Shown in pieces: positions 773 through 40,007 of a stretch of 46,293 nucleotides of DNA. The stretch is taken from positions 1 to 46,293 of IMG/VR virus record IMGVR_UViG_3300008108_000304; one strand, written 5' to 3'. Every line of letters starts with the position of its first letter. Within the stretch, counting starts at the first letter, position 1. Both the position numbers and the translations under genes were made by a program. The stretch is from a virus. Under the pieces are notes generated by a model that saw nothing but the letters and a program-made list of their open reading frames with translations, was not told the DNA's origin and searched no databases.

Positions 773-997
773 CTGTTACTAGAACTGGGTGAAATTTGGT
801 GGTGGGAAAGTAACCGTCAAGTTCCGATCAATATATTTTTAAGAAAAGATATTGAACCGTTTAGGTATATTATAAAAACGTTTAACAGCAAGGATGTAAG
901 GATTATACTAGGGCCGGTAGTAAACCTTATGAATCTATCCTTGAAACGTATCAAAAGAAAAAGCGTACAACTAGTACGCCGACCGCCGTCTCGTTAA
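773..997 (+). CDS. Possible small basic protein, start damaged
   Basis: The plus-strand frame 761-997 is open and has a convincing protein composition, with segments such as VPINIFLRKDIEPF, a GPVVNLMNL stretch and a basic C-terminus (KRIKRK, RRPPSR). Its TAA stop overlaps the stop of the convergent minus gene by a few bases. There is no ATG, GTG or TTG start in frame. An ATG at 762-764 lies two bases after a perfect TATAAATA box but needs a one-base insertion in the following CCC run to read into this frame. It is either a gene with an indel, a 5'-truncated remnant, or chance. The listed start is a CTG and is arbitrary. No family recognised. Confidence 0.33.
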   Translation: MLLELGEIWWWESNRQVPINIFLRKDIEPFRYIIKTFNSKDVRIILGPVVNLMNLSLKRIKRKSVQLVRRPPSR

Positions 998-10275: not shown

Positions 10276-12078
10276 TTATCTCATTCCGGCTAATTTTTTC
10301 ATTCTTGTCATTTCGCCAATAGTCTGTAATTTAGCAATTACCTTTTCGGCAATTGGACCTGCACTATCGCCAAATTTCTTTTCGCAGGCAATTTTAACAC
10401 CTTCTTCTCCTTTTGGAAAAGTGCCTTCTTCTGCATTGTACATACTCTTAACAAATTCAATTAACTCATCAGATTTGTTTCCAAATACATCTTCAATCTT
10501 CATACCTGCCTTGGTAATAGCTTCGCCTAGTGTCATTTCTTTACCAGCAATGCGAATAATAGTTTCTGCTGTTGCACCAGCCTTCTTTGCCTTTTTAATA
10601 GCATCGGCCATTCCCTTTTTAGCCAAATGACGGGCTTTATGTTTAATAGTATTTCCAAACTGATCTTTATTATCGCTTGATTTTTTGTAAGGACCATCAA
10701 ACGGAGGATCTTCTTTTTCTTCTGCAACTGGAGGTGTTGCTGGTGGTGTTGGTTCAGCAGCAGGGGCAGCAGGTGCTTCTGGAGCTGGGGCAGCAGTTGG
10801 TTCAGCAGGTGCTTCTGGTTCAGCCGGCATTTCGGGCTCAGTGGGTGTTTCTTCAAAATTAAGTTTGCTTAACACATCTGTGCCGTTTTCTTTGTCTTTT
10901 ATTTCCACATAATCTTTAAGTATGTCTCGTACGTCTTGGTCTGGATTAATGTCTGCTAGTTCTTTTAGCACATCCATTAGATCATCGTCTTCAATAATTC
11001 CTGATAAGCTCTCAATGGCATTATTTCCATCTGTGCCAACAGGAAAAGGTTGTGATACTAATTGATTAAGTTTTTCAATAGCTTGATCTTGCTTCTCTTG
11101 ATCATCACTGAATATGTCTGACGAACCCTCTACAATGCTGTTAAGGTATGATTCAAACTCGTTAAATTCTTTAACTTCTTTATGAGCGTTTTTATCTTCG
11201 TCTTCGTCTTCTTCGTCAATTAAATCTTCAATAGTTAAATTTTTAACTGGAACATCGCTTTCATCTATTAGTTTAAAAATATAAGGGAATACATTTTTAA
11301 GTTCTTCGTTGAATGTACGGATAGTCAAACGATCAATCCAATCATTCATAATTTCTTCAGGTATTTCTTTTGCAGATGTCTCTTCAAAATTTTCTGCAAA
11401 TTGTTCGTAGTGATTAACATTTTGTAGACTAAAGATTTCTTTTTTAACTTGATCAATGCGCTCTAGAACTTTAAAATTTACTGAACTCATTGCTTCGCTG
11501 ACCATTGGATTACGTTCAACATAACCTTTAAACATACGTAGTTTGCCAAGTTCTTCACTTAAACTAGTAATGTGTTGACCCATTGAGTCATAAGGTGTTC
11601 CGCCATGACAGATATGTTGAGCTAATGCTCTAGCACCATTTAAATGTTTGAAAGGATATTTAAATCTTTCACCTTGTGCATTTTCAATATAGATGCTTTC
11701 TATTCGCTGTGTTCTACCAGCAGGATTTTCTAAATTAATAGGGGCACTGTGTTTTACAATAATTTTTGATTCGCCAAACTGTTGAAAACTAGTTTTGCTT
11801 GTGCCATATAGTTTGCTTTCGGTCATGTTGCCGTCTCCGGATTTTTTGGATAAAAAGTCGTAATCTTTATCTCCGTCCTCGTCTTCATCTTTTTCTGCAA
11901 GATGGATTGTAATTCTTCCTAAATTTTGTCCATCAATTGCGTAGTCAAAATCAAAGAATCTAGCTTCTGATGGTTTGCCTGTGGTTTCGCTTTCTTTGTC
12001 CTTAAGGCTTATCTCTGGAAAAGAAGTACGAATTTTAGCAAATAGCTCTTTAGCAATTAAATTTAGATTTTTATTCAT
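10276..12078 (-). CDS. Large conserved protein downstream of terminase, unknown function
   Basis: 600 residues from ATG 12078. A GTG five codons earlier lies inside the late promoter box and overlaps the gp17 stop, so it is unlikely. The N-terminal 200 residues form a folded-looking domain (FFDFDYAIDGQNLGRITIHL, ARALAQHICHGG). An acidic helical middle follows (DLIDEEDEDEDKN), then a Pro/Ala/Glu-rich linker (coded near 10720-10850) and a basic C-terminal domain that ends in MTRMKKLAGMR. Short basic LAG-type tails occur in other head-region proteins of marine T4-like phages as I recall them. The late promoter box GATAAATA (12084-12091) five bases before the ATG shows late expression. A virion or packaging role is likely by context only. 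Confidence 0.72.
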   Translation of the reverse strand: MNKNLNLIAKELFAKIRTSFPEISLKDKESETTGKPSEARFFDFDYAIDGQNLGRITIHLAEKDEDEDGDKDYDFLSKKSGDGNMTESKLYGTSKTSFQQFGESKIIVKHSAPINLENPAGRTQRIESIYIENAQGERFKYPFKHLNGARALAQHICHGGTPYDSMGQHITSLSEELGKLRMFKGYVERNPMVSEAMSSVNFKVLERIDQVKKEIFSLQNVNHYEQFAENFEETSAKEIPEEIMNDWIDRLTIRTFNEELKNVFPYIFKLIDESDVPVKNLTIEDLIDEEDEDEDKNAHKEVKEFNEFESYLNSIVEGSSDIFSDDQEKQDQAIEKLNQLVSQPFPVGTDGNNAIESLSGIIEDDDLMDVLKELADINPDQDVRDILKDYVEIKDKENGTDVLSKLNFEETPTEPEMPAEPEAPAEPTAAPAPEAPAAPAAEPTPPATPPVAEEKEDPPFDGPYKKSSDNKDQFGNTIKHKARHLAKKGMADAIKKAKKAGATAETIIRIAGKEMTLGEAITKAGMKIEDVFGNKSDELIEFVKSMYNAEEGTFPKGEEGVKIACEKKFGDSAGPIAEKVIAKLQTIGEMTRMKKLAGMR

Positions 12079-12083
12079 ATTCG

Positions 12084-12091
12084 TATTTATC
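12084..12091 (-). promoter_or_regulatory. Late promoter box GATAAATA, leaderless spacing
   Basis: GATAAATA on the minus strand, overlapping the gp17 stop codon and exactly five bases before ATG 12078. T4 late boxes span about -13 to -6, so transcription should start at the A of the ATG. No Shine-Dalgarno precedes this start. Confidence 0.6.
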
Positions 12092-13682
12092 ACATGTTTG
12101 TGGAAATAAAAATTGGCATTGGCATGTCAATGTCGTCATCGCTGACAAGATCACTGCTGTTAATAGTGGCATAAACCCGCTGATCCCAATCTCCTAGTAC
12201 TTGACTCATTCTAACTAACAATAAACATGCACTTACTAGATCGTCTTGTTCATCATTTTTAGCTTTAAAACTTACTCCATGTGCAATAAAAGTTTTAAGC
12301 TCTGAAATCAACGGCCTACTGTAAATAGCCATCTTATTAGTTTCTATTAGATGTTTTAATCTAGCAGCAGCAGCAATTTTTGACCCGTGCGTAGTGTTAA
12401 ATCCTTTGCGGAACTTACGCACATGGCCTTTTCTTACAGGTTCGCTAACAAATAGTCCTGGAAAGTTTTCTTCTCCAATATCTTTTATGCAGACTAATCC
12501 TGCTTCACCAACTGTGTTATTTTCTATAGTCCAATAGATGCTGTTAGGATTATCGTCGCCCATGAAATCATTAATGTATCTTAATATTTCTCGTAATATT
12601 TTAATCTGCCCTTGTATAGGCGTAAGATTGTGTTGCCACTCTGCTACTTGAGTAAAGCTAGGTAATTCAAACACTTCTATAGCAGCATTGTTGCCTCCTG
12701 TACCTAAACTAGGATCTAATGTAATAGCATAGATACTTTCTTTGTTTAATTTTTTATACCAGCGTGTCTGACCTACACGTTGAATTGGCTCCATACCTTC
12801 TAGTTCTGATAGTTTAATGCTGTTAACTAGTGTTTCGTCGTAGATTAAGAATTCACAGTTATATTCTCGACGGAATCGTTCTTCACCAATACGGCCTCGT
12901 TCAGCAGTTTCCCAGGCAGAATCTCTATCTGGATGCTCGCTCCATTTACAGGTAAAAGGAAAAAATCCATTTATACCTACTTCTTGTTCATTGCCAAATT
13001 CGTCAAACTTCTTGTTGGCTTCTTTCCATATAATAGCAAACGTGTCTTCGTCACTGTTAGGTGTTGACGTGATAATTGCTTTACCGCCTGTGGCTAGTGT
13101 AGGTGATATGGATGTCCAGAATTCATCAGCGATATTGGGGGGAACAAATGCAAACTCATCACAGTATAGTAAGGAGATAGACATACCGCGGCCTGTATTG
13201 CCAGTAGTAGTTGTAGAGACAATGCGTGATCCGTTATCAAATTCAATACTCCCTTTGTTATAGTTAACTACACCGCAGCGTATATGATCAGGACATAGTT
13301 CATATGCATATCTTATACGTTGCATAATTTCCTGCGAACCTGTGTATTTGTGTGCAGAAATTAAAATTGTTTGATCGGGATGAAACATAGCATACCATAA
13401 AAGATATCCTGCGGCACAGGTAGTTTTGCCCATTTGTCGAGGTAACATGTTGATGTTAAATCGATGTCCATGGTATGCGTCTAATAATCTAGTTTGGAAC
13501 TCAAAAGGTTCAAACAGCAATTTACCTTTTACAGGATGCTGTATATAAAAAAACTTTTGGCAGAAATAATGATATCCGTCTTCAAGACTACAGGCCAGCA
13601 GATCTTCAATTTGCTGCTCTGTAAATGATTCTTTGGTGTGAGCCTTTTTAGTTAAGACTCCATCTAATGATTTTGATGGCAT
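12090..13682 (-). CDS. 17: Terminase large subunit gp17 (packaging ATPase and nuclease)
   Basis: 530 residues (T4 gp17 610). ATPase: LPRQMGKTT (80-88, Walker A of the terminase kind), LLYCDEFAFV with D175-E176 (Walker B and catalytic Glu), STPNS (206-210, coupling motif). RNase-H-like nuclease: ITLDPSLG (D323), WTIENN (E387) and EQDDLVSA (D480/D481), the three acidic metal ligands. The protein pumps DNA into the prohead and cuts the concatemer, working with gp16 and the portal. It starts at ATG 13682 after the terminator at 13695-13723. The box TGTAAATA (13688-13695) ends five bases before the ATG and no ribosome site is seen, so its message may be leaderless. Confidence 0.96.
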   Translation of the reverse strand: MPSKSLDGVLTKKAHTKESFTEQQIEDLLACSLEDGYHYFCQKFFYIQHPVKGKLLFEPFEFQTRLLDAYHGHRFNINMLPRQMGKTTCAAGYLLWYAMFHPDQTILISAHKYTGSQEIMQRIRYAYELCPDHIRCGVVNYNKGSIEFDNGSRIVSTTTTGNTGRGMSISLLYCDEFAFVPPNIADEFWTSISPTLATGGKAIITSTPNSDEDTFAIIWKEANKKFDEFGNEQEVGINGFFPFTCKWSEHPDRDSAWETAERGRIGEERFRREYNCEFLIYDETLVNSIKLSELEGMEPIQRVGQTRWYKKLNKESIYAITLDPSLGTGGNNAAIEVFELPSFTQVAEWQHNLTPIQGQIKILREILRYINDFMGDDNPNSIYWTIENNTVGEAGLVCIKDIGEENFPGLFVSEPVRKGHVRKFRKGFNTTHGSKIAAAARLKHLIETNKMAIYSRPLISELKTFIAHGVSFKAKNDEQDDLVSACLLLVRMSQVLGDWDQRVYATINSSDLVSDDDIDMPMPIFISTNM

Positions 13683-13687
13683 ACGAT

Positions 13688-13695
13688 TATTTACA
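13688..13695 (-). promoter_or_regulatory. Late promoter box TGTAAATA before gp17, leaderless spacing
   Basis: TGTAAATA on the minus strand (core TAAATA conserved) with five bases to ATG 13682 and no Shine-Dalgarno. It lies directly behind the terminator hairpin of the upstream gene. Confidence 0.5.
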
Positions 13696-13723
13696 ACAAA
13701 AAAGCGGGCAAATGCCCGCTTTT
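13695..13723 (-). terminator. Rho-independent terminator upstream of gp17
   Basis: Nine-base-pair GC-rich stem (AAAGCGGGC at 13701-13709, GCCCGCTTT at 13714-13722), four-base loop and a TTTTTT run on the minus strand. It ends transcripts from the 212-residue gene, so gp17 needs its own promoter. Confidence 0.85.
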
Positions 13724-13739
13724 GAAATTATAAAACTGA

Positions 13740-14378
13740 TCAACGAGATTTAACTTCGTTGTATAAGTTTGACAGGCGATTTACAAGACTTTCCATTGCT
13801 GGAACACCTCTAGGCGCATATCCGTCATAACGATCGCCTTGATTGCCTCTGCTAGCGTTGCCGTGTAGGTCGTCGCCGGTGCCTGTAACTGCGCCGGTAT
13901 CTGCATACATTTCATCTGGGCTGTTGGCAAATTCTTCTTGTCCAATTATTTTTTGTTTGTCGCCACCTATGCTTGGAGGCTGCATTTTTTTAATAAGGAT
14001 TGCAGGATCTTGCATACCGTCATCGCTGCCAGCATCACCGCCATCTTCAATATTTTTTAAGATATCCATTAGATTTTTAATGCCGCCTGCACCGCTAGCG
14101 TTCATACTAACATTTGCACTAATGCTGTCTGCTTGAGGAGGTGTTGGACTTCTCATACCCATCATACCACCTGGCATGTTTGCCATTCCTGGCATGCCGC
14201 ACTCATCTACGTCGCCTTCTTCTTTAACTTTAAACTCTTGTCCGTCAACTTCAAATTCATCTTTGCCCGCATCTCTAGCAGCATCTAATGCACCGCTGAA
14301 AGCATTGCCTTCATTAGGCTCTTCGATGACTTGCTGATCTAATTCAGCCATTCTTTGTATTAATTCTTGGAAATTCAT
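13740..14378 (-). CDS. Gly/Met-rich conserved protein in the packaging cluster, unknown function
   Basis: 212 residues, low complexity in the middle (GMPGMANMPGGMMGMRSP) with an Asp/Gly-rich centre, helical at both ends (MNFQELIQRMAELDQQVIE and ESLVNRLSNLYNEV). It looks largely disordered. AAGGA precedes the ATG. It is the last gene before a strong terminator, after gp16 and the 205-residue gene. Proteins of this composition are seen near the terminase in marine T4-like phages. A scaffold-like or head-internal role would fit, but nothing in the sequence proves it. Confidence 0.65.
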   Translation of the reverse strand: MNFQELIQRMAELDQQVIEEPNEGNAFSGALDAARDAGKDEFEVDGQEFKVKEEGDVDECGMPGMANMPGGMMGMRSPTPPQADSISANVSMNASGAGGIKNLMDILKNIEDGGDAGSDDGMQDPAILIKKMQPPSIGGDKQKIIGQEEFANSPDEMYADTGAVTGTGDDLHGNASRGNQGDRYDGYAPRGVPAMESLVNRLSNLYNEVKSR

Positions 14379-14379
14379 A

Positions 14380-14997
14380 TTATCGTCCTTTTCTTGGGTC
14401 TGGGTTTCCTGATAGACCCTTGAGCAAACTGTGGGCAGGGCCAGCTTTGGTCATTTCAGTTGCTTTTTCTTTGTGCAATGATTTGGCCAGTAATTTTTCG
14501 TTCACGCCTTTAAATTGTGTAGGTTGACTTTCTTTTCTTTGCTTTGCTAAATCTTTTAAGAAATTACTGATGTATTTTTCGCCTACTAAATTTTGATTAT
14601 TCTCTTTAGGGTAGTCTTGAGTTAAAATAGATTTAGCATCGTCTGCTTCTGTTTCAACAGCCATGTTTGCTTCTTCAATAGGAGTTCTTACACGAATGCA
14701 AGATCTACTTAATCCTGTAGAGCTAGCTAACAGTTCTGCTAATACTGCACTGGTAGTAGGATAATCTAACTCGGTCTCAAATACTGTCATTGCTGCATTT
14801 TTTATTTCTGGAAAATCAAGTAGAGTTGCTTGTATTGGAGTGCTTTTACCTTTGGTAAATTTACTTACTTGGTATTTTTGTAATGCGGCTTCCATAACAT
14901 CTTCGCAATGCTCGGGAAGATCTCCTGCAACTTTTATTTTAAAGACGTATTTTTTAGCGTCTTGATTTTCTTTAAGGTAGTGACTGAATAGTTTCAT
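14380..14997 (-). CDS. Conserved protein beside terminase small subunit, unknown function
   Basis: 205 residues. The N-terminal 100 residues look like a small alpha/beta domain (KKYVFKIKVAGDLPEHCEDV, LDYPTTSAVLAELLASSTG, CIRVRTPIEEAN). The C-terminal half is charged and probably extended, ending in a basic tail (PDPRKGR). ATG 14997 has AGGA eight bases upstream and a late box AATAAATA at 15017-15024 inside the gp16 gene. One base separates its stop from the next gene. I recall homologues next to gp16 in related phages, all unnamed. Confidence 0.68.
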   Translation of the reverse strand: MKLFSHYLKENQDAKKYVFKIKVAGDLPEHCEDVMEAALQKYQVSKFTKGKSTPIQATLLDFPEIKNAAMTVFETELDYPTTSAVLAELLASSTGLSRSCIRVRTPIEEANMAVETEADDAKSILTQDYPKENNQNLVGEKYISNFLKDLAKQRKESQPTQFKGVNEKLLAKSLHKEKATEMTKAGPAHSLLKGLSGNPDPRKGR

Positions 14998-15015
14998 GGC
15001 TTAAATCCTAATGTA

Positions 15016-15504
15016 TTATTTATTCATATTTTTAAGTTTTTCAATTAGGCTGTTGCGATCACTAATAATCACACCCTCACCATGTACAGTAAGAGTTTCA
15101 TCGCCGGCTTTTTGATCTAACTGTTGTTTCTTAAGTTGAAGTTCGATCATCTTAAGTTTTTTATCTAATTTTGCTGACTTTGCATCAATTGCATTTTTAA
15201 GCATAGTTCCCGCAACTTCAAATATGCGGCCGCTGTATCTAGCTTCTACATTCATACCTAGATCCATAAGGTCATCATAGGCATCTGTGGCCCGCTGTGC
15301 TAGAGCATCAAGTTCTCCGTCAGCAATATCTCCAAGTCCTTTGACCTGCGGAAGGGCTGCTGATATTTTATCGAATTCTGATAGGTCCCGTAACAAAGGC
15401 TGTGCCTGTTCAGCTACTGCGTTTCTTTCAGCAACTTTTTCCGCATCCTTAACCATTTTCTTGTTTTCGGGCAAATTGAGCAATTCTTCTAGTTTTTTAG
15501 TCAT
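15016..15504 (-). CDS. 16: Terminase small subunit gp16
   Basis: 162 residues (T4 gp16 164). Central DAYDDLMDLGMNVEARYSGRIFEVAG followed by long helices (AKLDKKLKMIELQLKKQQLDQK) fits the coiled-coil oligomerisation core of gp16, which is preceded by the conserved D-(Y/D)-x-x-x-R pattern. gp16 forms rings that recognise the concatemer and stimulate gp17 ATPase. It lies between gp4 and gp17 as expected for a packaging module. GATAAGTA (15510-15517) stands five bases before the ATG with no close Shine-Dalgarno, suggesting a leaderless late start. Confidence 0.75.
   Translation of the reverse strand: MTKKLEELLNLPENKKMVKDAEKVAERNAVAEQAQPLLRDLSEFDKISAALPQVKGLGDIADGELDALAQRATDAYDDLMDLGMNVEARYSGRIFEVAGTMLKNAIDAKSAKLDKKLKMIELQLKKQQLDQKAGDETLTVHGEGVIISDRNSLIEKLKNMNK
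15017..15024 (-). promoter_or_regulatory. Late promoter box AATAAATA inside gp16, for the 205-residue gene
   Basis: AATAAATA on the minus strand, 19 bases before ATG 14997, with AGGA between. This is a conventional late promoter with a short leader, in contrast to the leaderless ones. Confidence 0.45.
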
Positions 15505-15509
15505 ACAAA

Positions 15510-15517
15510 TACTTATC
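15510..15517 (-). promoter_or_regulatory. Late-type box GATAAGTA before gp16
   Basis: GATAAGTA on the minus strand, one mismatch from the GATAAATA used elsewhere in the window, again exactly five bases before the ATG (15504). Confidence 0.4.
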
Positions 15518-15950
15518 TTTTTCCACCGTTATGGAAAATTTCATTTTCGTTGACTACTCTAAACTTTATGCCCTGTGCTTTGCACCAAGCCTGTGCGGCT
15601 CGCCATTTGGCAACATTCCTTGCATACTCAATTTGATTGTTTCTGCTTTTACCTACTTTTTCTCTTAACGTTTGATTTTGTGGTTTAACTTCTACTAGTT
15701 CAGTGTGTATTTGACTGTTTTTATCAAGATACTGTATAAAGAAGTCTGGAACATATACTGTTTGTCGACCAGTAATTGGACAACGATAAGGTATTGCTAT
15801 CGATTCGCTGGCCCATTTTTGAACGCTACCGTGAGAATCGCAGAAACGCATAAATGCCAATTCCCAACTACTGCGGTATGTAGGACTTTTTTTGCCTACA
15901 TATTTTTCTGGATTTAAAGGTTGATATTTTCCAGATGCAAATCTACTCAT
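15513..15950 (-). CDS. 4: Head completion protein gp4, nuclease-fold
   Basis: 145 residues (T4 gp4 150). Conserved blocks: SGKYQPLNPEKYVGKKSP, YRSSWELAFMRFCD, WASESIAIPYRCPITG, YVPDFFIQY and TELVEVKPQ. The E-x-(9-25)-D-x-(9-15)-E-x-K arrangement (E in SSWEL, D in VPDFF, ExK in VEVKP) is that of a PD-(D/E)XK-like endonuclease, as proposed for T4 gp4. It acts on filled heads and is needed for stable tail joining. ATG 15950 overlaps the previous gene's stop by four bases. Strong family match. Confidence 0.92.
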   Translation of the reverse strand: MSRFASGKYQPLNPEKYVGKKSPTYRSSWELAFMRFCDSHGSVQKWASESIAIPYRCPITGRQTVYVPDFFIQYLDKNSQIHTELVEVKPQNQTLREKVGKSRNNQIEYARNVAKWRAAQAWCKAQGIKFRVVNENEIFHNGGKR

Positions 15951-16324
15951 GGCTTGATGTTTCTGCTTTCTAGAGCATCATTGTCTGTGGTGAATTTAAA
16001 TCCTAGGATGCTGGTCTTTTCTCGATAGGCATTAAGGACTTGACTTACAATAGTACTGAGTTGTACGTCATTTAAACCTTTAAGGCTGTCTAGTAGTTTA
16101 AAAACATTTACGTTATCAACTTTAGCCTGATTCATCAAGACAATTCCTGTACTTCTAGCGGCTTCTTCTCCGAATCCTCGTTTTAAGAAAAAGCCCACAA
16201 CAGCATCTACTTGACTAGCAGGAAAGCTTATTTGATTAATAAAATATTTGTCAAAAAATGTTTTGACGCCTGTGCTACTATCTTCAGTAGCTTCGGTGGG
16301 AATATTACTAGTGACTTCTGACAT
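15947..16324 (-). CDS. Small conserved structural-cluster protein, unknown function
   Basis: 125 residues from ATG 16324 (MSEVTSN), one base after the upstream stop and behind AAGG; a TTG further up is less likely. A short polar N-terminus is followed by a compact helical domain (YFINQISFPASQVDAVVGFF, LLDSLKGLNDVQLSTIVSQV) ending in a charged tail. I recall closely similar proteins before gp4 in cyanophages. Conservation within the tail and head-completion cluster suggests a virion or assembly part. The position equals that of gp53 in T4, but I see no gp53 similarity. Confidence 0.7.
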   Translation of the reverse strand: MSEVTSNIPTEATEDSSTGVKTFFDKYFINQISFPASQVDAVVGFFLKRGFGEEAARSTGIVLMNQAKVDNVNVFKLLDSLKGLNDVQLSTIVSQVLNAYREKTSILGFKFTTDNDALESRNIKP

Positions 16325-16325
16325 G

Positions 16326-17426
16326 TTAACCGCCTTGTGGACCAAAAATACTTATTGCTTTTGCAGGAGTCGATTGCGAAGCTCCTGGTACTGGAAAACT
16401 TACATTTGGTTGACCGCTTAATCCAACTCGGGCAGTAGCATTTATGCCTGTTAGCACAGCACCTGTAACTTGATTAAGTGCGCCTTCTTTAGTGAGATTT
16501 TTTGCATTTTGATATGTGTTCACTGCGGTAATAGCTGTGCCTATTAGAGCTGCTGGATTTTTAAATGTATTAGGATCGCCCATTGCACCAAGTACAGAAC
16601 TTATTCCGCCTAATATACTGCTGGCATTACCAAAGATACTAGTACCTCCACCTAATGCCACAGGGTCTGATGCGGCACGTCTTGCCTGCGGATCGGCAGC
16701 ATATGGGCTTGGTGTTTGATCGTAGTGCTCTTGACTAAATCCATTGGGTATTCCGTTTCTTACTCTACCAGTTTCATAGGCCACAGATTCATAGGCCAGC
16801 GTCATAGACTGTTCAGCAGGTTGACTGCTACTTGAGTCTAATGTATCGTGATTCCACTGTGTTACTATAGGATTAATTAATTTATACGCATACCATGCTT
16901 TTTTAGCAAGTTGATAAATTACTATACTTGTAAAAAACGGCACAGTACTGTTATTATCTAAACCATAACTAGCTTTAATAAACGGTTTAGCTTTCATAGC
17001 AGTCCTATTATAGGCGCCAATATTATCTGCTGCGCTAGTATCACCGTAGTAGTAATTAAAATAATTGTACCATAGCTGTCCTACAACACCATAGTTGTCA
17101 TCATGGAATCTTAAAGTTACAGGTTGATAATCAATTTTGTTCTGTACAACTTTTTTTCTGTTGTATTGATTTAATGTTTCAGACTGTACTGTAAATTTAG
17201 GTAATTCAGCTGATTTAACCAGCATGTTAATTTCGTTCTGATGTCGATATTTAAATCCTAAATTCTTAAGAGCACTAGAATTAATATTGAAAACTACATG
17301 GTAGAGGAATTTTGTTTTAGGAGCAAGACGTAGATCACTTTCTCGATACAGACGAGAAGCGTGTTGAAAATCACGAAGAACTGGTTCTCCGGGTTGTCTT
17401 ATTCCATATTGAACTGGTGTTGGCAT
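16326..17426 (-). CDS. Tail-tube-fold structural protein, candidate baseplate-tube junction protein (gp54/gp48-like)
   Basis: 366 residues. Residues from about 40 to 210 have the layout of the T4 tube fold: a strand pair (FLYHVVFNINSS), then LVKSAELPKFTVQSETLNQY with the K-S-A-x-L-P turn seen in gp19-type proteins, QPVTLRFHDDN, and an aromatic block (LWYNYFNYYYGD). The last 140 residues are Gly/Ala/Ser-rich and probably extended or hydrophobic (SSILGGISSVLGAMG). In T4, gp48 and gp54 carry this fold at the tube base, so that role is proposed. It is not proven, since a second tube variant is also possible. Late box GATAAATA stands five bases before ATG 17426. Confidence 0.6.
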   Translation of the reverse strand: MPTPVQYGIRQPGEPVLRDFQHASRLYRESDLRLAPKTKFLYHVVFNINSSALKNLGFKYRHQNEINMLVKSAELPKFTVQSETLNQYNRKKVVQNKIDYQPVTLRFHDDNYGVVGQLWYNYFNYYYGDTSAADNIGAYNRTAMKAKPFIKASYGLDNNSTVPFFTSIVIYQLAKKAWYAYKLINPIVTQWNHDTLDSSSSQPAEQSMTLAYESVAYETGRVRNGIPNGFSQEHYDQTPSPYAADPQARRAASDPVALGGGTSIFGNASSILGGISSVLGAMGDPNTFKNPAALIGTAITAVNTYQNAKNLTKEGALNQVTGAVLTGINATARVGLSGQPNVSFPVPGASQSTPAKAISIFGPQGG

Positions 17427-17431
17427 AATAA

Positions 17432-17439
17432 TATTTATC
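17432..17439 (-). promoter_or_regulatory. Late promoter box GATAAATA, leaderless spacing
   Basis: GATAAATA on the minus strand with exactly five bases (TTATT) to ATG 17426, no Shine-Dalgarno, and a terminator for gp19 just upstream. Confidence 0.6.
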
Positions 17440-17473
17440 GTTCGATATTAACTACGTAGTTAATACTCAGTCA

Positions 17474-17502
17474 CAAAAAAGCCCACTTGCGTGGGCTTTT
17501 TA
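17474..17502 (-). terminator. Rho-independent terminator after gp19
   Basis: Stem AAAAAGCCCAC (17476-17486) with GTGGGCTTTTT (17491-17501), loop TTGC. On the minus strand the last arm runs into a T stretch. It lies right after the gp19 stop and ends the gp18-gp19 transcript; the symmetry allows action on both strands. Confidence 0.88.
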
Positions 17503-18123
17503 TTAACCGCCTGTGGCGTTTGTACTTACTGAACGACCGTAGCTTGTTCCAACGCCAGCTAATGGTGAATTATCTGGTTTCTGGATTGCGTTGTCATACT
17601 TAATACTCATCTGTATTGTTACAGGAGCATTTTCGCTGTATGATAAATTCTGGTAGTTAACGTTTTCTAGATAGCAACCATAAAGTTCCCATGTTTCTAG
17701 AATGCCAACTGTTTGATTTCCGTTACCGCCATCAAGAATTTCAATTTTAGTTGAAAACTTATAATCAATACCAGAAGCAGCTGAAGCTTGCTCATAGAAG
17801 TCAAATTGTTTCTGTAATTGCTCACCAACAATTTTCTGTGTAGCACCAGTTACATCGTCACGAACGTTAAGAGTAATTGGCGACCATGTGTGTTTACCTG
17901 CTAGATAAACACGGCTGTTATATACATCAACAGTAATTGGATCAAATGCTATAGTGGGTCTTGTTACGTCAGCAACTTGTTTAGTTAACTCTGCTGTTGA
18001 TGATGCTAGACCAAAACCTAACAAAGTAACGCGGAAGCGATACTTGAGTTTTGGCATTAGCAAACCCTGTGACTGAGCACCGTCTAATGGTACTGTGAAT
18101 TTGGTTAATGTTGAAATTGACAT
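17503..18123 (-). CDS. 19: Tail tube protein gp19
   Basis: 206 residues (T4 gp19 163). KYRFRVTLLGFG opens the tube fold. VTRPTIAFDPITVDVYNSRVY and LAGKHTWSPITLNVRDDV match the conserved strand-turn-strand blocks of gp19. The C-terminal block ETWELYGCYLENVNYQNLSY carries the strand that joins the tube ring. It forms the inner tube through which DNA passes. AGAGGA precedes ATG 18123, 15 bases after the sheath gene, the usual sheath-tube pair. About 20 extra Gly/Ser/Asn residues trail at the C-terminus. Confidence 0.92.
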   Translation of the reverse strand: MSISTLTKFTVPLDGAQSQGLLMPKLKYRFRVTLLGFGLASSTAELTKQVADVTRPTIAFDPITVDVYNSRVYLAGKHTWSPITLNVRDDVTGATQKIVGEQLQKQFDFYEQASAASGIDYKFSTKIEILDGGNGNQTVGILETWELYGCYLENVNYQNLSYSENAPVTIQMSIKYDNAIQKPDNSPLAGVGTSYGRSVSTNATGG

Positions 18124-18138
18124 ATTAATATCCTCTTA

Positions 18139-21100
18139 TTATAGACCTGCGATTTCGCCAGTGTTCTTCAAACGCAATGGAATGTAGATAAATTCAACTG
18201 CTTTAACTGGCTCAACAGCTACATCAACCCAAAGTTCATTTCTATCAATTCTAGCAGGAGTATTATTGCTTTCATCACAAACTACTAGGTAGTCGTAAAG
18301 AGCACGTTGTCCAACTAGTTCTAACATCAATGAATCGACAGCACCTTTGATCTCATCTCTAGTGATCTTATCGTTTGGTTCAAACACGTATGGTTTAGCT
18401 AGTGCATTTAGTTGTCTACGTAGGTAAATCACTAAACGAGCTACGTTAATACGATCAAGTGCGCTGGCTGCTTTTGCTCTAGTGCGCTGACCGTAGTTTA
18501 CTAGACCGCTGCCTGTAAAGAATGTAATTGGATTAATCTTTGATTCATAAAGTGTATCGCGTTGACCGTTGTTTAGTGCAACTGATCTAAATTCACCTTC
18601 TGCATCTACATACCCAACTGCTGTAGCATTTGTAATACCGCCACGACGTAGTCCGGCTGGTGCAAACCATGGATAAGCTACTTGATCGTTAAGAGCAATA
18701 GTTCTTAACATCATATGGCTCGGTGGAACAACTACGTTGTTACCAAAGTTATCGCTGGTAAAGCCCCATGGATAGAACATAGCCATGTATTCGTCGTAAC
18801 TTACTGCGCCTAGATCGTTGTCTTCTAGAGCTAGACGTTGGTTAGTACCCCATCTATTCAAGCTAGTAGCATCTGGTGTTAAACGTGCTGGTGTATCACC
18901 AACTACAAATGCTGTTAGTCCACGATCATAGTTTAAGCTAATTAACTCACCTATTAACTCTGGATATCCTGGGCAAGCCATCAAGTTAAACACACGACTT
19001 TCTTCGTCACGAATTTGTTGATTACTGTTCACCAACGCTTGCAGAGCTTGTACAACTACCTTGCGCTGTGCTTGACGTCCGAAGCTTCCACTTCCGTCTG
19101 GGTTATTAGCACTCTCTGTTACCCAACGATGTGTGTAGTAAGCCTGCATTGACTCGCCAACAGGTGCATTAAATCTTGTGTTGTCTGCTGTAGTGTCAAT
19201 GTAACTTTGTTTAAATTTCTTAACGTTGAATCCACTTCTACGTAGATTCCATAACAACATACCTTTTGGATATAATGCTGGATCTGGGCAGTCAAAGTCT
19301 ACGAAATTACTTGTGAGTAATTCTTCAATAGTTCCGGTAGGTGCATTATCAGCAGTGCCGCCATCTGTTCCTTGTCTAGCATCTGCAAATAAGATACCTT
19401 CGTCTGTTGACTGGTCAGTCTTATCTACTAATACCCAACGATCTTTAACTGGCTTGTTTAGCAAGTCTGAATCGTATTTGTAAATTGTTGGATAGTTTTC
19501 AATGTCGCTGGTGTCGATCCATAGGTCGCCGGTTTCAAGTGCTGAACCATCGCTTTGTTTTTCTGGTGCTGTAGCAGCTACCATTGGGCCTGCTGGATCA
19601 GTACCTTCTGCAAAGTATGGGCTTGTTGGACTCTTATAGCCCACCCACTTGTCGCCATCGTGAATCATGATATCAACTTCGTCAACTACAGAGCTGTACC
19701 ATAAAGTACCGTCTTCTGCAAGACTACCTGGATTATCTGCTGAACTGATATACACTAATGGTACCCAGTTGCTGGCCACATAGCCTGATGCTGTTTGGCC
19801 TACTGGTGCTGTTTGAATCCACTCTGTGCCTTCGCCAAAGTTAGCTTCGCTAGGCTCATATTGATATGCAGTTGAAAAACCTAATGGATTTAATGGAGTG
19901 TTCAGTCCATTGGTAAATCTAATCTCGCCGCCTTTATTATGTTTAATTACTAAACGGTTTTGACTATCAACTTCTGCAGTAATGTTTACATAACCGTTAG
20001 CATTGATCACAGTTGCGATAGTTTCTGCATCAGAAGAGTCGCCGGCTGCTGTAAATTGATTAACTTTGTCAGCATCAATAACAGCATCACCTACTAATGA
20101 TTCTGCCATATTAAACACATAATCTTCGCCGCTGGTAAACATACCTGTTATAATCTTTGCACTTCTAACCACAGTTGCTCCGATAGCAGCTCTGCGCCAT
20201 GCTTTAAACTCTGCTACACGTGGTGTAGAGTCAGCTGTATCGTCGTGTTCTTGATAATTGTATTGTACATATACTGTTCCAAGAGCAATGTTTGCGCCAC
20301 CGCCTGTTTTATCTAAACTAGCAATAGCTTCATGACCGTTGGAATATAATGGTGCAGTGATGCTGTCCCACAATAGTGTTTGGCCGTTCCAGCGTTTAAA
20401 TCTCCAACGAGCACCTAGATTGCTTTCTGTAGTCTTTAACCACACAGAACCTGTAGGACGTGGATATGTATCTTTTCGTTTAAATGTAGGAACTTGTGTA
20501 TGCTTGCTGATTGTCAAACGTGGGTTATAATAATCACCGCCAGCAATTCCCAATGTTGTTAATAGGCCTGCTGTACTAGCAGCACCAATTTCAACTAGGT
20601 TAGAATCGTCACCAACATCACCGCTTTCGCCGTTGTGGTAAATTTCTAGTTTGTTATTAACTACCGAAGCAGTTACACCGCTGCCACCTAATATTGGATT
20701 AGCATTAATTGCATCTACAAGTTTAGCCAATGTGTTGTTTGGACCAACTGGTACTAAAATTGATTCACCGTTAATTTCAATAACGTTGTTAGCAGTGAGC
20801 GTAGAGGCTGCTTTAGTACCAGCTACAGTTGGCCATGAAGCTTGCCATTGATTGCTGCCTACTAAAACCCAAGCACCTGAACGATTCTTGTAATATAAAG
20901 TATTTGGATGGAGGCTAGTTAATGCAGGTCTGTTATCGTTAGCATCACGTACAGCAACAAAAGCGTAGTCGCCAATCTGACCACCTGCTTTTGTATTTGG
21001 AGCACCAGTAAGTGGATCAACTTTATTTGGATCTGTAACTACAAGTGGGATTTTGTTAGTAAATGTCTGGCCACCAGATGAAGTAACTGCTGCGCCATTC

Positions 21101-21546
21101 CACTCAAAAACGCCAAATGCTGTAACACTAGTATCTAACCAGTGTGTTCCTGGGATAGGATTAGCAATTGGAGCTTCTGCTGAAGCATTTAGTTCATCTA
21201 AATCAATATTAGCTCTAACAACATAAGCACGATTACTTACGCCTAACAAACTGTAAGCAGCCTGTAGACCGTATTCGTTCTGTTCACCTGCGTGAATCGG
21301 ATTGTTATTAGAATCTGTCTTGAACGATGGATCGCCAAAAGTATCTACAAGATCCTTCTGACTGGTTATTAAATATACTTGGCCGGCGTTGGCCTTTAAG
21401 GTACCTGGAGCTGTTCCGTCTCCTGCACCGTTAGTTTTATTTTCTGCTGAAGCAACGACAATTAAAGGTACGGTGCCAGGCTCAGCTGGTGTATAAAACG
21501 ATTCGTCAACAACTTTGACTTCTACGCCTGGTGAAGTTAATGCCAT
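18139..21546 (-). CDS. 18: Contractile tail sheath protein gp18, enlarged
   Basis: 1135 residues against 659 in T4. The N-terminal 115 residues (SPGVEVKVVDES, GLQAAYSLLGVSNRAYVVRA) and the C-terminal 340 (CPGYPELIGELISLNYDRGL, NINPITFFTGSG-like stretch, INVARLVIYLRRQLNAL, ending KNTGEIAGL) are the conserved contractile core and linker arms. Between them lie about 600 residues of insertions, with repeated Trp modules of the form G-x-x-W-x-x-T followed by a W-(N/D)-G or D-x-W turn, and ENNVIEINGE/VINANGY-like strands. The insertions should face outward on the tail. AGGAGAG precedes ATG 21546. Both a late core box (21580-21587) and a sigma70-like promoter (21621-21649) lie upstream. Confidence 0.94.
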   Translation of the reverse strand: MALTSPGVEVKVVDESFYTPAEPGTVPLIVVASAENKTNGAGDGTAPGTLKANAGQVYLITSQKDLVDTFGDPSFKTDSNNNPIHAGEQNEYGLQAAYSLLGVSNRAYVVRANIDLDELNASAEAPIANPIPGTHWLDTSVTAFGVFEWNGAAVTSSGGQTFTNKIPLVVTDPNKVDPLTGAPNTKAGGQIGDYAFVAVRDANDNRPALTSLHPNTLYYKNRSGAWVLVGSNQWQASWPTVAGTKAASTLTANNVIEINGESILVPVGPNNTLAKLVDAINANPILGGSGVTASVVNNKLEIYHNGESGDVGDDSNLVEIGAASTAGLLTTLGIAGGDYYNPRLTISKHTQVPTFKRKDTYPRPTGSVWLKTTESNLGARWRFKRWNGQTLLWDSITAPLYSNGHEAIASLDKTGGGANIALGTVYVQYNYQEHDDTADSTPRVAEFKAWRRAAIGATVVRSAKIITGMFTSGEDYVFNMAESLVGDAVIDADKVNQFTAAGDSSDAETIATVINANGYVNITAEVDSQNRLVIKHNKGGEIRFTNGLNTPLNPLGFSTAYQYEPSEANFGEGTEWIQTAPVGQTASGYVASNWVPLVYISSADNPGSLAEDGTLWYSSVVDEVDIMIHDGDKWVGYKSPTSPYFAEGTDPAGPMVAATAPEKQSDGSALETGDLWIDTSDIENYPTIYKYDSDLLNKPVKDRWVLVDKTDQSTDEGILFADARQGTDGGTADNAPTGTIEELLTSNFVDFDCPDPALYPKGMLLWNLRRSGFNVKKFKQSYIDTTADNTRFNAPVGESMQAYYTHRWVTESANNPDGSGSFGRQAQRKVVVQALQALVNSNQQIRDEESRVFNLMACPGYPELIGELISLNYDRGLTAFVVGDTPARLTPDATSLNRWGTNQRLALEDNDLGAVSYDEYMAMFYPWGFTSDNFGNNVVVPPSHMMLRTIALNDQVAYPWFAPAGLRRGGITNATAVGYVDAEGEFRSVALNNGQRDTLYESKINPITFFTGSGLVNYGQRTRAKAASALDRINVARLVIYLRRQLNALAKPYVFEPNDKITRDEIKGAVDSLMLELVGQRALYDYLVVCDESNNTPARIDRNELWVDVAVEPVKAVEFIYIPLRLKNTGEIAGL

Positions 21547-21579
21547 ATTAAACTCTCCTATGGGGTTTCATTATACTTT

Positions 21580-21587
21580 TATTTAGC
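21580..21587 (-). promoter_or_regulatory. Late promoter box GCTAAATA before gp18
   Basis: GCTAAATA (core TAAATA) on the minus strand, 33 bases before ATG 21546, with AGGAGAG in the leader. A conventional late promoter for the sheath-tube pair. Confidence 0.45.
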
Positions 21588-21620
21588 GGTTTTTTCTAAA
21601 ATGGAATACTAAACTTACTA

Positions 21621-21649
21621 ATCTTAAGTGTATATGTGCCAATTGTCAA
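21621..21649 (-). promoter_or_regulatory. Sigma70-like promoter upstream of gp18
   Basis: Minus strand: TTGACA (21649-21644), 17-base spacer, TAAGAT (21626-21621). The minus-35 is perfect, the minus-10 four of six. It stands in the 125-base gap between gp1 and gp18, which otherwise holds only the late box and ribosome site. Confidence 0.42.
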
Positions 21650-21671
21650 CGCACACTAGCTAAAGAAGGAT

Positions 21672-22319
21672 TTAACTGGCGACGAGCTGATCTTCAACCA
21701 GATTTCTAATCTGCGAGAATAAATCATCAATACTGCCGTTGTTATCAATTTCGCAGTCTATTCCTCGACCTATCCATGCTGTTTCGCTGGCATGAATTTT
21801 TAGTGCTTCCATACGTGCTTTGCTAATAGCCCATGACATATTTGTTGGACCAGCATTTACATTAAGTGCATCTTGATACCACCCTGGGTCAGCACCTCGA
21901 ACTACTCGCACTACTTTGCCGCCTGCGTTATGAATGGCTTTAATTTCGTTAGGAAATCGCACATCTGAAATAACAATATTATCACTGGTCTTACGCATTT
22001 TGTTTTCTAAACTGGCAATCCAAACGTCGTCGTGAAAACCTTGTCGGCAAACTTCTGTACCCCAGTATTGCAAAATCCATCGAGGAGTTAGGTTAGGCAT
22101 ATTGAGTCGTTCTGCCCACCAAGGATCTACACGCTCACGCCACTCACGGGCTTCTTTGGTGCGGCCTTCTAACAGGGTTCTGTCCCATCCAAATACTGCG
22201 GCAACAGCATCTTTAAGTGTATTAGCAAATGAATCACGGCGGAATCCGTGAAAGTTAACAAGATAGTCTGCGGCAGTATCTTTGCCCGAACCGATAAATC
22301 CAACGAAGCCAATGATCAT
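21672..22319 (-). CDS. 1: Deoxynucleoside monophosphate kinase (gp1)
   Basis: 215 residues (T4 gp1 241). P-loop GFIGSGKDT (7-15), then RDSFANTLKDAVAAVFGW, LEGRTKEAREWRERVDPWW and ILQYWGTEVCRQGFHDDVWI, the gp1-specific substrate blocks, and NIVISDVRFPNEIKAI (Walker B type). T4 gp1 phosphorylates dTMP, dGMP and hm-dCMP to diphosphates, feeding phage DNA synthesis in the cytoplasm. It sits within the virion cluster but has its own sigma70-like promoter and an AGGAGA ribosome site, so it can be made early. Confidence 0.93.
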   Translation of the reverse strand: MIIGFVGFIGSGKDTAADYLVNFHGFRRDSFANTLKDAVAAVFGWDRTLLEGRTKEAREWRERVDPWWAERLNMPNLTPRWILQYWGTEVCRQGFHDDVWIASLENKMRKTSDNIVISDVRFPNEIKAIHNAGGKVVRVVRGADPGWYQDALNVNAGPTNMSWAISKARMEALKIHASETAWIGRGIDCEIDNNGSIDDLFSQIRNLVEDQLVAS

Positions 22320-22341
22320 AGTATCTCCTAGGTGATACTAT

Positions 22342-22369
22342 ATTTTATACTATTTTATAACTTTGTCAA
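22342..22369 (-). promoter_or_regulatory. Sigma70-like early promoter for gp1 kinase
   Basis: Minus strand: TTGACA (22369-22364), 16-base spacer, TAAAAT (22347-22342), about 20 bases before the ATG at 22319, with AGGAGA between. It occupies the 54-base gap behind the 127-residue gene. Confidence 0.68.
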
Positions 22370-22373
22370 GAAT

Positions 22374-22757
22374 TTATACGCCATATTTGTTGCGTTTTGG
22401 TTTAGCAACAGGGCTTGTTTTATTTGTAGTGTTTAATTCTTCGCTGTTCATGTTGCCGTCATTGACATCTTTATAATCGGCACCAGCGGCTTTGTACGCC
22501 ATCTTGAGTATGTCTGCTTCTTCTTTGGTATAAGGAAATGCAGCTTTGCGTTTGCCAATCCAACTTTTAGCATCTATGTCAGGCATTGTTTTGCCATCGG
22601 TCGATGCCGCCGCCATGCCTACACGAAATTGAACATAGTCACTGTTAGCTCTTTCTGCGTCTCCAAATGTGTGTACACCTCGAGTAGACTGATTTTGACG
22701 CTTGGTCATTTTAGCCTGTTTTACTTTTGCTTCGGTGATAATTTCTTGAACTTTCAT
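22374..22757 (-). CDS. Small basic conserved phage protein, unknown function
   Basis: 127 residues, lysine-rich. N-terminal helix (VQEIITEAKVKQAKMTKRQ) is followed by a segment with DAERANSDYVQFRVGMAAA and DIDAKSWIGKRKAAFPYT; the tail is polar and basic (KPKRNKYGV). The conserved arrangement recalls a short protein seen in marine T4-like phages near neck genes. No catalytic motif. One base separates it from the upstream gene, so it is cotranscribed with the neck-like protein from the late promoter at 23536. Confidence 0.65.
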   Translation of the reverse strand: MKVQEIITEAKVKQAKMTKRQNQSTRGVHTFGDAERANSDYVQFRVGMAAASTDGKTMPDIDAKSWIGKRKAAFPYTKEEADILKMAYKAAGADYKDVNDGNMNSEELNTTNKTSPVAKPKRNKYGV

Positions 22758-22758
22758 A

Positions 22759-23520
22759 TTAACCTATTACAAATGTATAACCAGTTCCGCCACTGATTAG
22801 AGTTTCTAGTTCTTTGTCTAATTTTTCTAATTCTTCTTTGCTGGCAGATTTAAGATCGGCACCATTTAACTGCGTTCCTCCTTGAGGTCCAGCAATAGTT
22901 CCAAATTTGCTACGTGCTTCTCCTAATATACCTTTACAAATAGCTAGAGTATAATCTTTAATCCACTGTCCTGCATAGATGTCATTAATAAGATTAAAAT
23001 CTGGTCTGTAATTATAGCATCTTAACAGTAATGTTTCTTTTTCAGTAAACGGTCTTTGTAGAATACGTAATGTATGCGAATACGGAATCCACTGAAATTC
23101 AATGTAGCTACCAAACATACGTCCTACCATTTCTTGATATTGTGCAAAGAAATCATATGTAGCAATACCACCAAGTGTTGTTGCATTTAACAAATATGTA
23201 TTAGTATAGGCTAAATTAAATGGCTCAAAATTAGTGCCTGTGCCTACAGATCTACTTCCTAGCGATCGTCTAAACACTGATCTTACTTCAACAATTTCGT
23301 CAGGAAGTTTGTAATCATTAGTATCTCTTTCTAACTCAATAAACATGTAGCTTTCTTCAACCGCATTTGGGCTGCGCTGTCTAAATCTAGATAGCGTTTT
23401 ATTAAGAGCTGCTTCGTAGTGTATAGGGTCAAGTTCAACGTCAATCATCCCGTCGCCTAGCATGGCGCGAACATAGTCGTAAACTTTCTGTTTTTCAGCT
23501 TGAACATTAATTTCTAACAT
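22759..23520 (-). CDS. Neck or head-tail connector-like virion protein
   Basis: 253 residues. The N-terminal half (VYDYVRAMLGDGMIDVEL, ALNKTLSRFRQRSPNAVEES, LPDEIVEVRSVFRR) resembles the small helical connector proteins that sit under phage portals. The middle has aromatic strands (FGSYIEFQWIPYSHTLRIL) and the end QWIKDYTLAICKGILGEARS is strongly conserved in my memory of cyanophage virion proteins. Sometimes such proteins are called gp13, but I do not see clear similarity to T4 gp13, so no symbol is given. GGGAGA precedes ATG 23520 and late box GATAAATA lies 15 bases up. Confidence 0.62.
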   Translation of the reverse strand: MLEINVQAEKQKVYDYVRAMLGDGMIDVELDPIHYEAALNKTLSRFRQRSPNAVEESYMFIELERDTNDYKLPDEIVEVRSVFRRSLGSRSVGTGTNFEPFNLAYTNTYLLNATTLGGIATYDFFAQYQEMVGRMFGSYIEFQWIPYSHTLRILQRPFTEKETLLLRCYNYRPDFNLINDIYAGQWIKDYTLAICKGILGEARSKFGTIAGPQGGTQLNGADLKSASKEELEKLDKELETLISGGTGYTFVIG

Positions 23521-23535
23521 TGGTGTCTCCCAGTA

Positions 23536-23543
23536 TATTTATC
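23536..23543 (-). promoter_or_regulatory. Late promoter box GATAAATA, minus half of a back-to-back pair
   Basis: GATAAATA on the minus strand, 15 bases before ATG 23520, with GGGAGA in the short leader. It forms one arm of a palindrome with the plus-strand box two bases away. Confidence 0.6.
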
Positions 23544-23544
23544 G

Positions 23545-23552
23545 AATAAATA
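23545..23552 (+). promoter_or_regulatory. Late promoter box AATAAATA, plus half of a back-to-back pair
   Basis: AATAAATA on the plus strand, seven bases before ATG 23560, no Shine-Dalgarno. With the minus box it forms TATTTAT-CGA-ATAAATA (23536-23552). Confidence 0.58.
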
Positions 23553-23559
23553 CTGTACT

Positions 23560-25185
23560 ATGCCACGTTTATCACTTTACCGTCCCGAAAAGGGCAACGA
23601 CTACAAATTTATAGATCGCCAAGCATCTGAGATGTTTCAGGTTGGCGGAACAGACGTTTACGTTCACAAATACATGGGTCCATCCCTAGTAGCTAACGGT
23701 ACTGCTGATCAACCCACTATTGATTCGTACAATGTTAAAAACATACAAGATCTACTGTTTTTAGAAAATCGAGATAGAAAGTATGATCCTAGCATTTATA
23801 GAATACGAGGCGTTTATAACGTACAAGATCTTGACTTTAATTTAAGTCAGTTTGGTTTATTTCTCGATAACGACACATTGTACATGACCATACATATCAA
23901 CGATTTTGTTAATACTGTTGGCCGCAAACCTATTAGCGGAGATGTATTAGAAATTCCGCATCTCAAAGATGAGTTTGCTCTTAACGATTTAGATGTAAGT
24001 CTACCTAGATACTATGTTATCAGTGATGTAGGCCGAGCTGCTGAAGGATTTAGTCCAACATGGTATCCTCATTTATACAGATTAAAATTAACTAAAATCA
24101 GTGACAGTCAACAGTATAAAGAAATTTTTGATCAGAAGATTGTTGATCCAGTAACTGGTGAAGAAACTAATAATACGTTGCGTGAGTTGTTAAGTACTCA
24201 ACAAAAAGTATTAGACATAAACGATCAATTAATTGCTCAAGCAGAAGCAGACGCTCCCAAGAGCGGTTACGAAACTCGACATCTGTACACATTAGCAGTT
24301 GATGCATCTGGTCACGCTGCACTAGAGTCAGTTGACGATACTAGTTTTCCTCCAGACTCGTCATCTACTAACATTGATGCTAGTAGAGTTTTAAAGAGAC
24401 CAAAGCGCAGCGGCTACCAAGGTTACCTAGTTGGTGACGGAGTTCCAGAGAACGGTGTTGACTTTGGGCACGGAATACAATTTCCCAATAATCCCTATGA
24501 CGGTGATTTCTTCTTAAGAACTGATTTTTTACCTAACAGATTATTTCGATATGATGGGGCTCGATGGGTCAGAAGAGAAGACGATGTACGCATGACAATG
24601 ACTAACACTGACACTAGAAGTACACTCAAAGGAACATTTATTAACAATAGTAATAAAGTTGGAGTTGGATTTATTGCCAGCGATGTTTATAGAGTTGAAG
24701 AATTTAAAGTTACAGCATCTATAGCTACTGTAGGAACTGATCTTGTTCTTACTGTAAGTTACATGCCGCCAGGTAAGATTATTAAAACAGGGTATGTGTT
24801 TAATTTACCAAAAATTCCCACTGATGCAAATGTCTATAATAGTGTAGAAATTGAATCTATATTGTCAGGTTCGGGAGGCATTGGCACTTATAAATTGGTA
24901 AGTACAACGGGCATAACCACTGTATCTAACAGACAAATTACACTTATAGGATTTAAACAACATCTCCTTACTCAAACTTATGTAGCAGGTATGTTTGCCA
25001 ATGTTAATTTTGGTGACAGTCTTGTTCCGTCAGTAACTGCTAGTTCAGGAACTGGCGGTAAAGTGTTGTTGACATTTAGTGAAGCAGCACCAACTGATTA
25101 TGAAATAGAATGGCAGCTATATTCTGGTTCAACAAACGAAAGAGTGGCTATTAGCAAGGCTCTTAAACCAAAGGCTGATTTATAA
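23560..25185 (+). CDS. Virion structural protein, neck/tail-completion region
   Basis: 541 residues. The first 200 are strongly patterned (RLSLYRPEKGNDYKFIDRQ, LFLENRDRKYDPSIYRIRG, FGLFLDNDTLYMTIHINDF, FSPTWYPHLYRLKLTKI) and recall a conserved cyanophage virion protein that follows the connector-like gene. A helical segment (LRELLSTQQKVLDINDQLIAQ) links to a Trp module (DGDFFLRTDF, FRYDGARWVRR) of the kind inserted in this phage's sheath, then beta-rich C-terminal parts. Its ATG follows a late box by seven bases without a ribosome site. Position before gp15 would fit gp14, but I see no gp14 signature, so the exact role is open. Confidence 0.65.
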   Translation: MPRLSLYRPEKGNDYKFIDRQASEMFQVGGTDVYVHKYMGPSLVANGTADQPTIDSYNVKNIQDLLFLENRDRKYDPSIYRIRGVYNVQDLDFNLSQFGLFLDNDTLYMTIHINDFVNTVGRKPISGDVLEIPHLKDEFALNDLDVSLPRYYVISDVGRAAEGFSPTWYPHLYRLKLTKISDSQQYKEIFDQKIVDPVTGEETNNTLRELLSTQQKVLDINDQLIAQAEADAPKSGYETRHLYTLAVDASGHAALESVDDTSFPPDSSSTNIDASRVLKRPKRSGYQGYLVGDGVPENGVDFGHGIQFPNNPYDGDFFLRTDFLPNRLFRYDGARWVRREDDVRMTMTNTDTRSTLKGTFINNSNKVGVGFIASDVYRVEEFKVTASIATVGTDLVLTVSYMPPGKIIKTGYVFNLPKIPTDANVYNSVEIESILSGSGGIGTYKLVSTTGITTVSNRQITLIGFKQHLLTQTYVAGMFANVNFGDSLVPSVTASSGTGGKVLLTFSEAAPTDYEIEWQLYSGSTNERVAISKALKPKADL

Positions 25186-32073: not shown

Positions 32074-32100
32074 TTGGTTTCACTCTCCACCATTATGTTG

Positions 32101-32108
32101 TATTTATT
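32101..32108 (-). promoter_or_regulatory. Late promoter box AATAAATA before the 1623-residue fibre gene
   Basis: AATAAATA on the minus strand, overlapping the stop codon of the 2609-residue gene, 27 bases before ATG 32073, with GGAGAG in the leader. Confidence 0.5.
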
Positions 32109-39936: not shown

Positions 39937-40007
39937 GTTGTCATCCTAAAAAGGTTGGGTCAAGACTTTCGTCGCCCTGCGGGTCAAGGAGAGTTTCCCC
40001 TCCGCCC

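Follow-up and report, generated by a model that had tools for sequence, protein, structure and literature searches.

Late promoters of the gp55 type in an uncultured T4-like phage very probably begin transcription at the start codon, so that four genes are predicted to be expressed from leaderless messages and a fifth, encoding a 541-aa protein, from a message with a leader of about 3 nt. The DNA that we analysed (the window) is a complete IMG/VR record of 46,293 bp and a fragment of a T4-superfamily myovirus, which belongs to a large and uncultured family of T4-like phages from fresh water. By terminase, the closest cultured relative is the jumbo phage PA5oct (55% identity); a host search with the terminase against bacterial genomes gave no match. 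Late transcription in T4 is a textbook system, and T4 late genes have leaders with Shine–Dalgarno (SD) sites. Leaderless mRNAs of bacteria and phages, such as that of lambda cI, start with a 5′-terminal AUG and have no SD. The phage examples known to us are mostly single regulatory genes, whereas the candidates described here form a conserved set of late genes for packaging and structure, each with a phage late promoter. The relevant features of the window are:

10276-12078, minus strand: gene for a 600-aa virion structural protein, predicted leaderless (phrog_13484, E 7.8e-11; no SD)
12084-12091, minus strand: late box GATAAATA, 5 nt before the ATG at 12078 of the 600-aa gene; abuts or overlaps the gp17 stop codon
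12090-13682, minus strand: gp17, terminase large subunit, predicted leaderless (phrog_36964, E 8e-127)
13688-13695, minus strand: late box TGTAAATA, 5 nt before the gp17 ATG at 13682
13697-13723, minus strand: intrinsic terminator, 10-bp hairpin and T-run, directly upstream of the gp17 box (fold -16.6 kcal/mol, z -3.9)
15016-15504, minus strand: gp16, terminase small subunit, predicted leaderless (phrog_445, E 3e-6)
15017-15024, minus strand: for contrast, late box of a 205-aa gene, gap 19, with AGGA in the leader
15510-15517, minus strand: late box GATAAGTA, 5 nt before the gp16 ATG at 15504; the TAA stop of the head-closure gene lies inside the box
16326-17426, minus strand: gene for a 366-aa tail-tube-fold protein, predicted leaderless (phrog_4542, E 6.6e-17)
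17432-17439, minus strand: late box GATAAATA, 5 nt before the ATG at 17426 of the 366-aa tube-fold gene
17448-17463, minus strand: palindrome TTAACTACGTAGTTAA, upstream element of the 366-aa gene's late promoter, conserved in relatives
17476-17501, minus strand: intrinsic terminator between two tube genes, upstream of the 366-aa gene's promoter (fold -19.8 kcal/mol, z -4.4)
23536-23543, minus strand: for contrast, late box of the divergently oriented head-tail adaptor gene, gap 15, SD GGGAGA
23545-23552, plus strand: late box AATAAATA, 7 nt before the ATG at 23560 of the 541-aa gene; probable 3-nt leader ACU
23560-25185, plus strand: gene for a 541-aa virion structural protein, predicted near-leaderless (phrog_11591, E 3e-90)

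The first-pass annotation had placed late-type boxes 5 nt before four start codons and 7 nt before a fifth, and all five were located as claimed: GATAAATA-CGAAT-ATG (12078, minus), TGTAAATA-ATCGT-ATG (13682, minus), GATAAGTA-TTTGT-ATG (15504, minus), GATAAATA-TTATT-ATG (17426, minus) and AATAAATA-CTGTACT-ATG (23560, plus). The boxes are conserved as NDTAARTA, resembling TATAAATA with a variable first base, as in a T4-type late -10 element. The T4 late box spans -13 to -6 (PMC1524935), and a 5-nt gap in this geometry would place +1 on the A of the ATG. We infer from T4 geometry and sequence patterns that the gap-5 genes are transcribed from that base, and translation in genes with such near boxes would then begin at a 5′-terminal AUG. 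As also stated in the annotation, none of the five starts has a clear SD; the SD duplex energies are +0.6 kcal/mol for the 600-aa gene, +1.7 for gp17, -3.3 for gp16 and +0.1 for both the 366-aa tube gene and the 541-aa gene. The leadered late genes, for which gaps of 15-33 bases had been given, measured 15 (adaptor), 19 (205-aa gene), 27 (fibre) and 33 (sheath), and the adaptor, sheath and 1623-aa fibre genes have an SD, with duplex energies of -6.4 to -7.3 kcal/mol. The description of all five near-box genes as virion genes needs amending, because gp16 and gp17 are packaging genes. In its longest ORF form the 600-aa gene starts at a GTG at 12093, which is unlikely to be the true start because many relatives that lack it retain the ATG at 12078.

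The boxes might be placed by chance in an AT-rich genome, and near-matches to TATAAATA show no excess in the window (99 versus 117 expected). The window contains four exact gap-5 placements, however, where 0.11 were expected (p=5e-5, shuffling), and a near box precedes 5 of 47 near-start ATGs versus 0 of 135 internal Met codons (p=0.001). The non-randomness thus sits in the position of the box and not in its frequency. To follow these positions in relatives, we fetched 80 sequences from IMG/VR by gp17 and 80 by the 541-aa protein, set their start codons by protein alignment, independently of the box, and counted distinct upstream regions of orthologues. The box was found at gap 4-6 in 45 of 49 upstream regions of the 600-aa gene, at gap 4-5 in 49 of 55 for gp17, at gap 4-7 in 50 of 50 for gp16, at gap 4-6 in 40 of 40 for the 366-aa tube gene and at gap 4-7 in 37 of 37 for the 541-aa gene. 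Pooled, 221 of 231 distinct upstream regions keep a gap of 4-7, so the free drift in box-to-ATG distance that the annotation had proposed to look for among relatives does not occur. This comparison refutes chance placement, which together with the shuffling result leaves it vanishingly improbable. Two neighbouring genes of the cluster do not share this spacing: in relatives the box of the 205-aa gene stands at gap 16-24, and that of the other tube gene (tube206), where it exists, at gap 17-22, tube206 having an SD in all relatives. On the gp17 tree, well-supported branches force at least eight changes of the gap-4 label between gaps 4 and 5, yet the gap stays within 4-5 wherever the box exists, which indicates that indels occur but are confined. 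In nearly all relatives the gp16 box has the form GATAAGTA; this variant is fixed, and its G may set promoter strength.

A genome-wide tally of ATGs near gene starts in the window and seven related, partial contigs revealed a bimodal distribution of box-to-ATG distances, with 62 ATGs at gap 4-7, 4 at gap 8-14 and 121 at gap 15-30. The near class lacks an SD, whereas the class at gap 15-30 mostly has one, and the median SD pairing energies differ accordingly (+0.3 versus -5.4 kcal/mol; p=2e-17). In every contig a gap 4-7 box was commoner at starts than at internal Met codons (p from 0.006 to 5e-5). The near-empty interval at gap 8-14 would be expected if the phages avoid leaders without enough room for an SD. 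Conserved gaps, bimodality and SD energies all support the proposal that a leaderless class exists beside a leadered, SD-bearing late class. Start codons in the near class were ATG in 62 cases and GTG or TTG in 5, which is consistent with leaderless translation but not discriminating, as leadered genes also mostly start with ATG. A T lies directly before the ATG in 50 of 62 near-class genes versus 207 of 613 others (p=8e-13); because that base would lie outside the mRNA, the bias is more readily explained by a preference of the transcription initiator than by one of translation. Further conserved leaderless candidates lie outside the window's gene set: a 79-aa gene (contigs G001, G003 and G004) and a 113-aa gene (G001, G002, G003, G006 and G007).

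The 541-aa gene departs somewhat from the other four. In its gap-7 class the three bases before the ATG are nearly invariant (A in 22 of 22, C in 21 of 22 and T in 22 of 22), and its other relatives have gaps of 4, 5 or 6. In the 205-aa gene, which is leadered, positions 4-5 downstream of the late box tend to be T-A; with the A preferred five bases after the box and not six, +1 may vary by one base. The invariant ACT and this T-A preference suggest that the 541-aa gene probably has a 3-nt leader, likelier than a strictly leaderless message. The claim of five leaderless late mRNAs thus remains the best reading for four genes and probably gives way to a very short leader for the fifth.

We also considered whether TAAATA near the ATG could be an AU-rich translation enhancer or start-context motif and no promoter at all. 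On longer transcripts the motif would be within reach of the ribosome, and AU-rich start regions are common in such genomes. However, SD-bearing late genes of these genomes carry the same motif at an upstream distance of 15-30 bases, and at gp17 it occurs solely where a terminator precedes it. It also matches the T4 late consensus (PMC1524935), and taken together these points make the enhancer explanation very improbable.

The terminators bear directly on how the promoters would be used. In 49 relatives the distance from the end of the gp17 hairpin to the ATG is 16-19 nt, which leaves room for the box and spacer alone. Box and adjoining terminator were both present at 49 gp17 loci and both absent at 6 (p=3e-8, with related loci non-independent). 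Among these six, five have an SD-like site (AAGGAAG, AAAGGAA or AAGG at L070, L072 and L074, which form one clade, and at L077 and L081), and L006 has no obvious SD; in five of the six the ATG overlaps or closely follows the upstream ORF. This co-occurrence suggests two states for gp17: expression from a leaderless promoter of its own downstream of a terminator, or inclusion in the upstream message. For the 366-aa gene, a terminator-like hairpin was found in 38 of 38 relatives, mostly ending ~46-56 nt before the ATG. Coding constraint was rejected as a cause of the box for gp17 and the tube gene, because their boxes are intergenic. For gp16, the head-closure stop codon falls at the same place within the box in 44 of 48 relatives, which is a partial coding constraint, and for the 600-aa gene the upstream gp17 stop overlaps or abuts the box.

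The gp16 and 600-aa genes raise another explanation, in which the boxes are late promoters but ribosomes reach the near-box genes mainly by translational coupling with the gene upstream on longer polycistronic messages, and the short message plays a secondary part. The ATGs of both genes mostly lie 7-14 nt after the upstream stop, with no terminator between. Coupling sits poorly with the terminators that nearly all relatives have upstream of gp17 and the tube gene, and it leaves unexplained the fixed box-to-ATG distance, the T at -1 and the equal gap at two divergent genes of phage HTVC008M (described below). We consider it unlikely as the main mode. Under the favoured explanation, initiation at the start codon, gp55-type late promoters would be positioned so that RNA polymerase initiates at the A of the ATG, producing leaderless late mRNAs for the 600-aa virion protein, gp17, gp16 and the 366-aa tube protein and a leader of ~3 nt for the 541-aa gene, while other late genes of the same genomes would have leaders of roughly 10-25 nt with an SD. 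The terminator that precedes the leaderless promoter of gp17, and at a greater distance that of the tube gene, would cut off the upstream message, and the late message would begin at the ATG. For gp16 and the 600-aa gene, whose boxes overlap or abut the stop codon of the preceding gene, an internal promoter would lie at the gene boundary; with no terminator before the box, read-through messages with translational coupling may also serve these two genes.

An element like AAAC-TACSCAGTTAAT (window 17447-17463, minus strand) is conserved ~18-20 nt upstream of the 366-aa tube gene's late box, and in relatives similar elements precede the late boxes of a few other genes at this distance (G001:117623, G002:42898 and G002:37366, all minus strand). 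It is possibly an activator site or an extended promoter; we know of no conserved element upstream of the box in T4 late promoters. Upstream flanks elsewhere are uninformative on this point, being terminator for gp17 and coding sequence for gp16 and the 600-aa gene.

The proposed leaderless arrangement is a variant within the known T4 late-promoter system. T4 late promoters (gp55/gp33/gp45, with the box at -13 to -6) share the same box and likewise stand upstream of structural and packaging genes. A gp55-type late sigma gene is present in relatives G001-G003 (E 2e-80 to phrog_12791), the window itself being a fragment. Beside it lies a gene that resembles, by position and sequence reading, a recombination-endonuclease subunit, and in the Pelagibacter phage HTVC008M the gene for that subunit follows the late sigma gene. 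A phage-encoded ribosomal protein S21 or IF3 was rejected as a cause of altered initiation, as neither was found in the seven partial related contigs.

Among the cultured phages compared, HTVC008M shows a strong gap-5 peak (15 of 285 versus 0 of 627, p=2e-8) at independently deposited starts. The peak comprises 11 genes with weak SDs, as in the window's phage family, but the genes with near boxes (gp2, gp4, gp48, gp25 and others) are mostly different, which suggests that the arrangement was probably gained independently or repeatedly. At 18916-18943 of HTVC008M (NC_020484), the start codons of the divergent genes gp2 and gp4 are separated by 26 bp, and each has a box at a 5-nt gap, a compact arrangement that recurs in near environmental relatives of this phage. 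P-SSM2 and 121Q have a weak peak. T4 and Syn9 show none, boxes 4-7 nt before their ATGs being no more frequent than chance, in contrast to the whole SD-less gene class found here. PA5oct has few near-box genes and no significant excess, and its gp17 has an SD and no box; its homologous cluster is not leaderless, unlike the prediction for the window. Gap-5 boxes do occur in PA5oct (NC_071039) at 84079 and 144985, both on the plus strand, before the genes for the head maturation protease gp331 and the structural protein gp262, which was detected by mass spectrometry (MS). From these contrasts, the leaderless late trait is lineage-specific and was probably gained or lost more than once. The late promoters of phiKZ, which have a TATG motif, resemble the arrangement predicted here in that transcription starts inside TATG, but in phiKZ it starts at the G and is carried out by a different enzyme, a phage multisubunit RNA polymerase (PMC4666361).

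Our search of the open-access literature returned no description of leaderless late genes for phages of the T4 type, an absence that is weak evidence as subscription papers were outside its scope; papers on AR9, phiKZ, 7-11, kayvirus, CBB, cyanophages (reviews) and Prochlorococcus concern other systems or present the box alone. Read from sequence, the conserved spacing suggests that these phages have, besides the SD route, another mode of late-gene translation that is absent from T4. A broader and more tentative idea is that two programmes of late translation operate in many environmental T4-like phages; the leaderless class could then be separately regulated and favoured over SD messages by the phage or the late-infection state of the ribosome, with terminator and leaderless promoter gained or lost as one module. 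If the favoured reading is true, late transcription and the leaderless translation of a conserved class of packaging and structural genes would be directly linked, since the late promoter would itself place the 5′ end of the message on the start codon. Leaderless translation could be tested during infection with HTVC008M in Pelagibacter, and for gp331 and gp262 of PA5oct in Pseudomonas aeruginosa. Start-codon annotation would also be affected, as SD-based gene callers may misplace leaderless starts.

Three further observations concern the window's other genes. The tail sheath protein (18139-21546, minus strand) is 1135 aa long, well above the usual size of T4 gp18, and the fibre-type genes (27202-46292, minus strand) are very long, at 1623, 2609 and more than 2094 aa. 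At 994-1572 (minus strand), a 192-aa DNA polymerase-like ORF matches phrog_11778, a family of 197 positions, which suggests a split polymerase gene.
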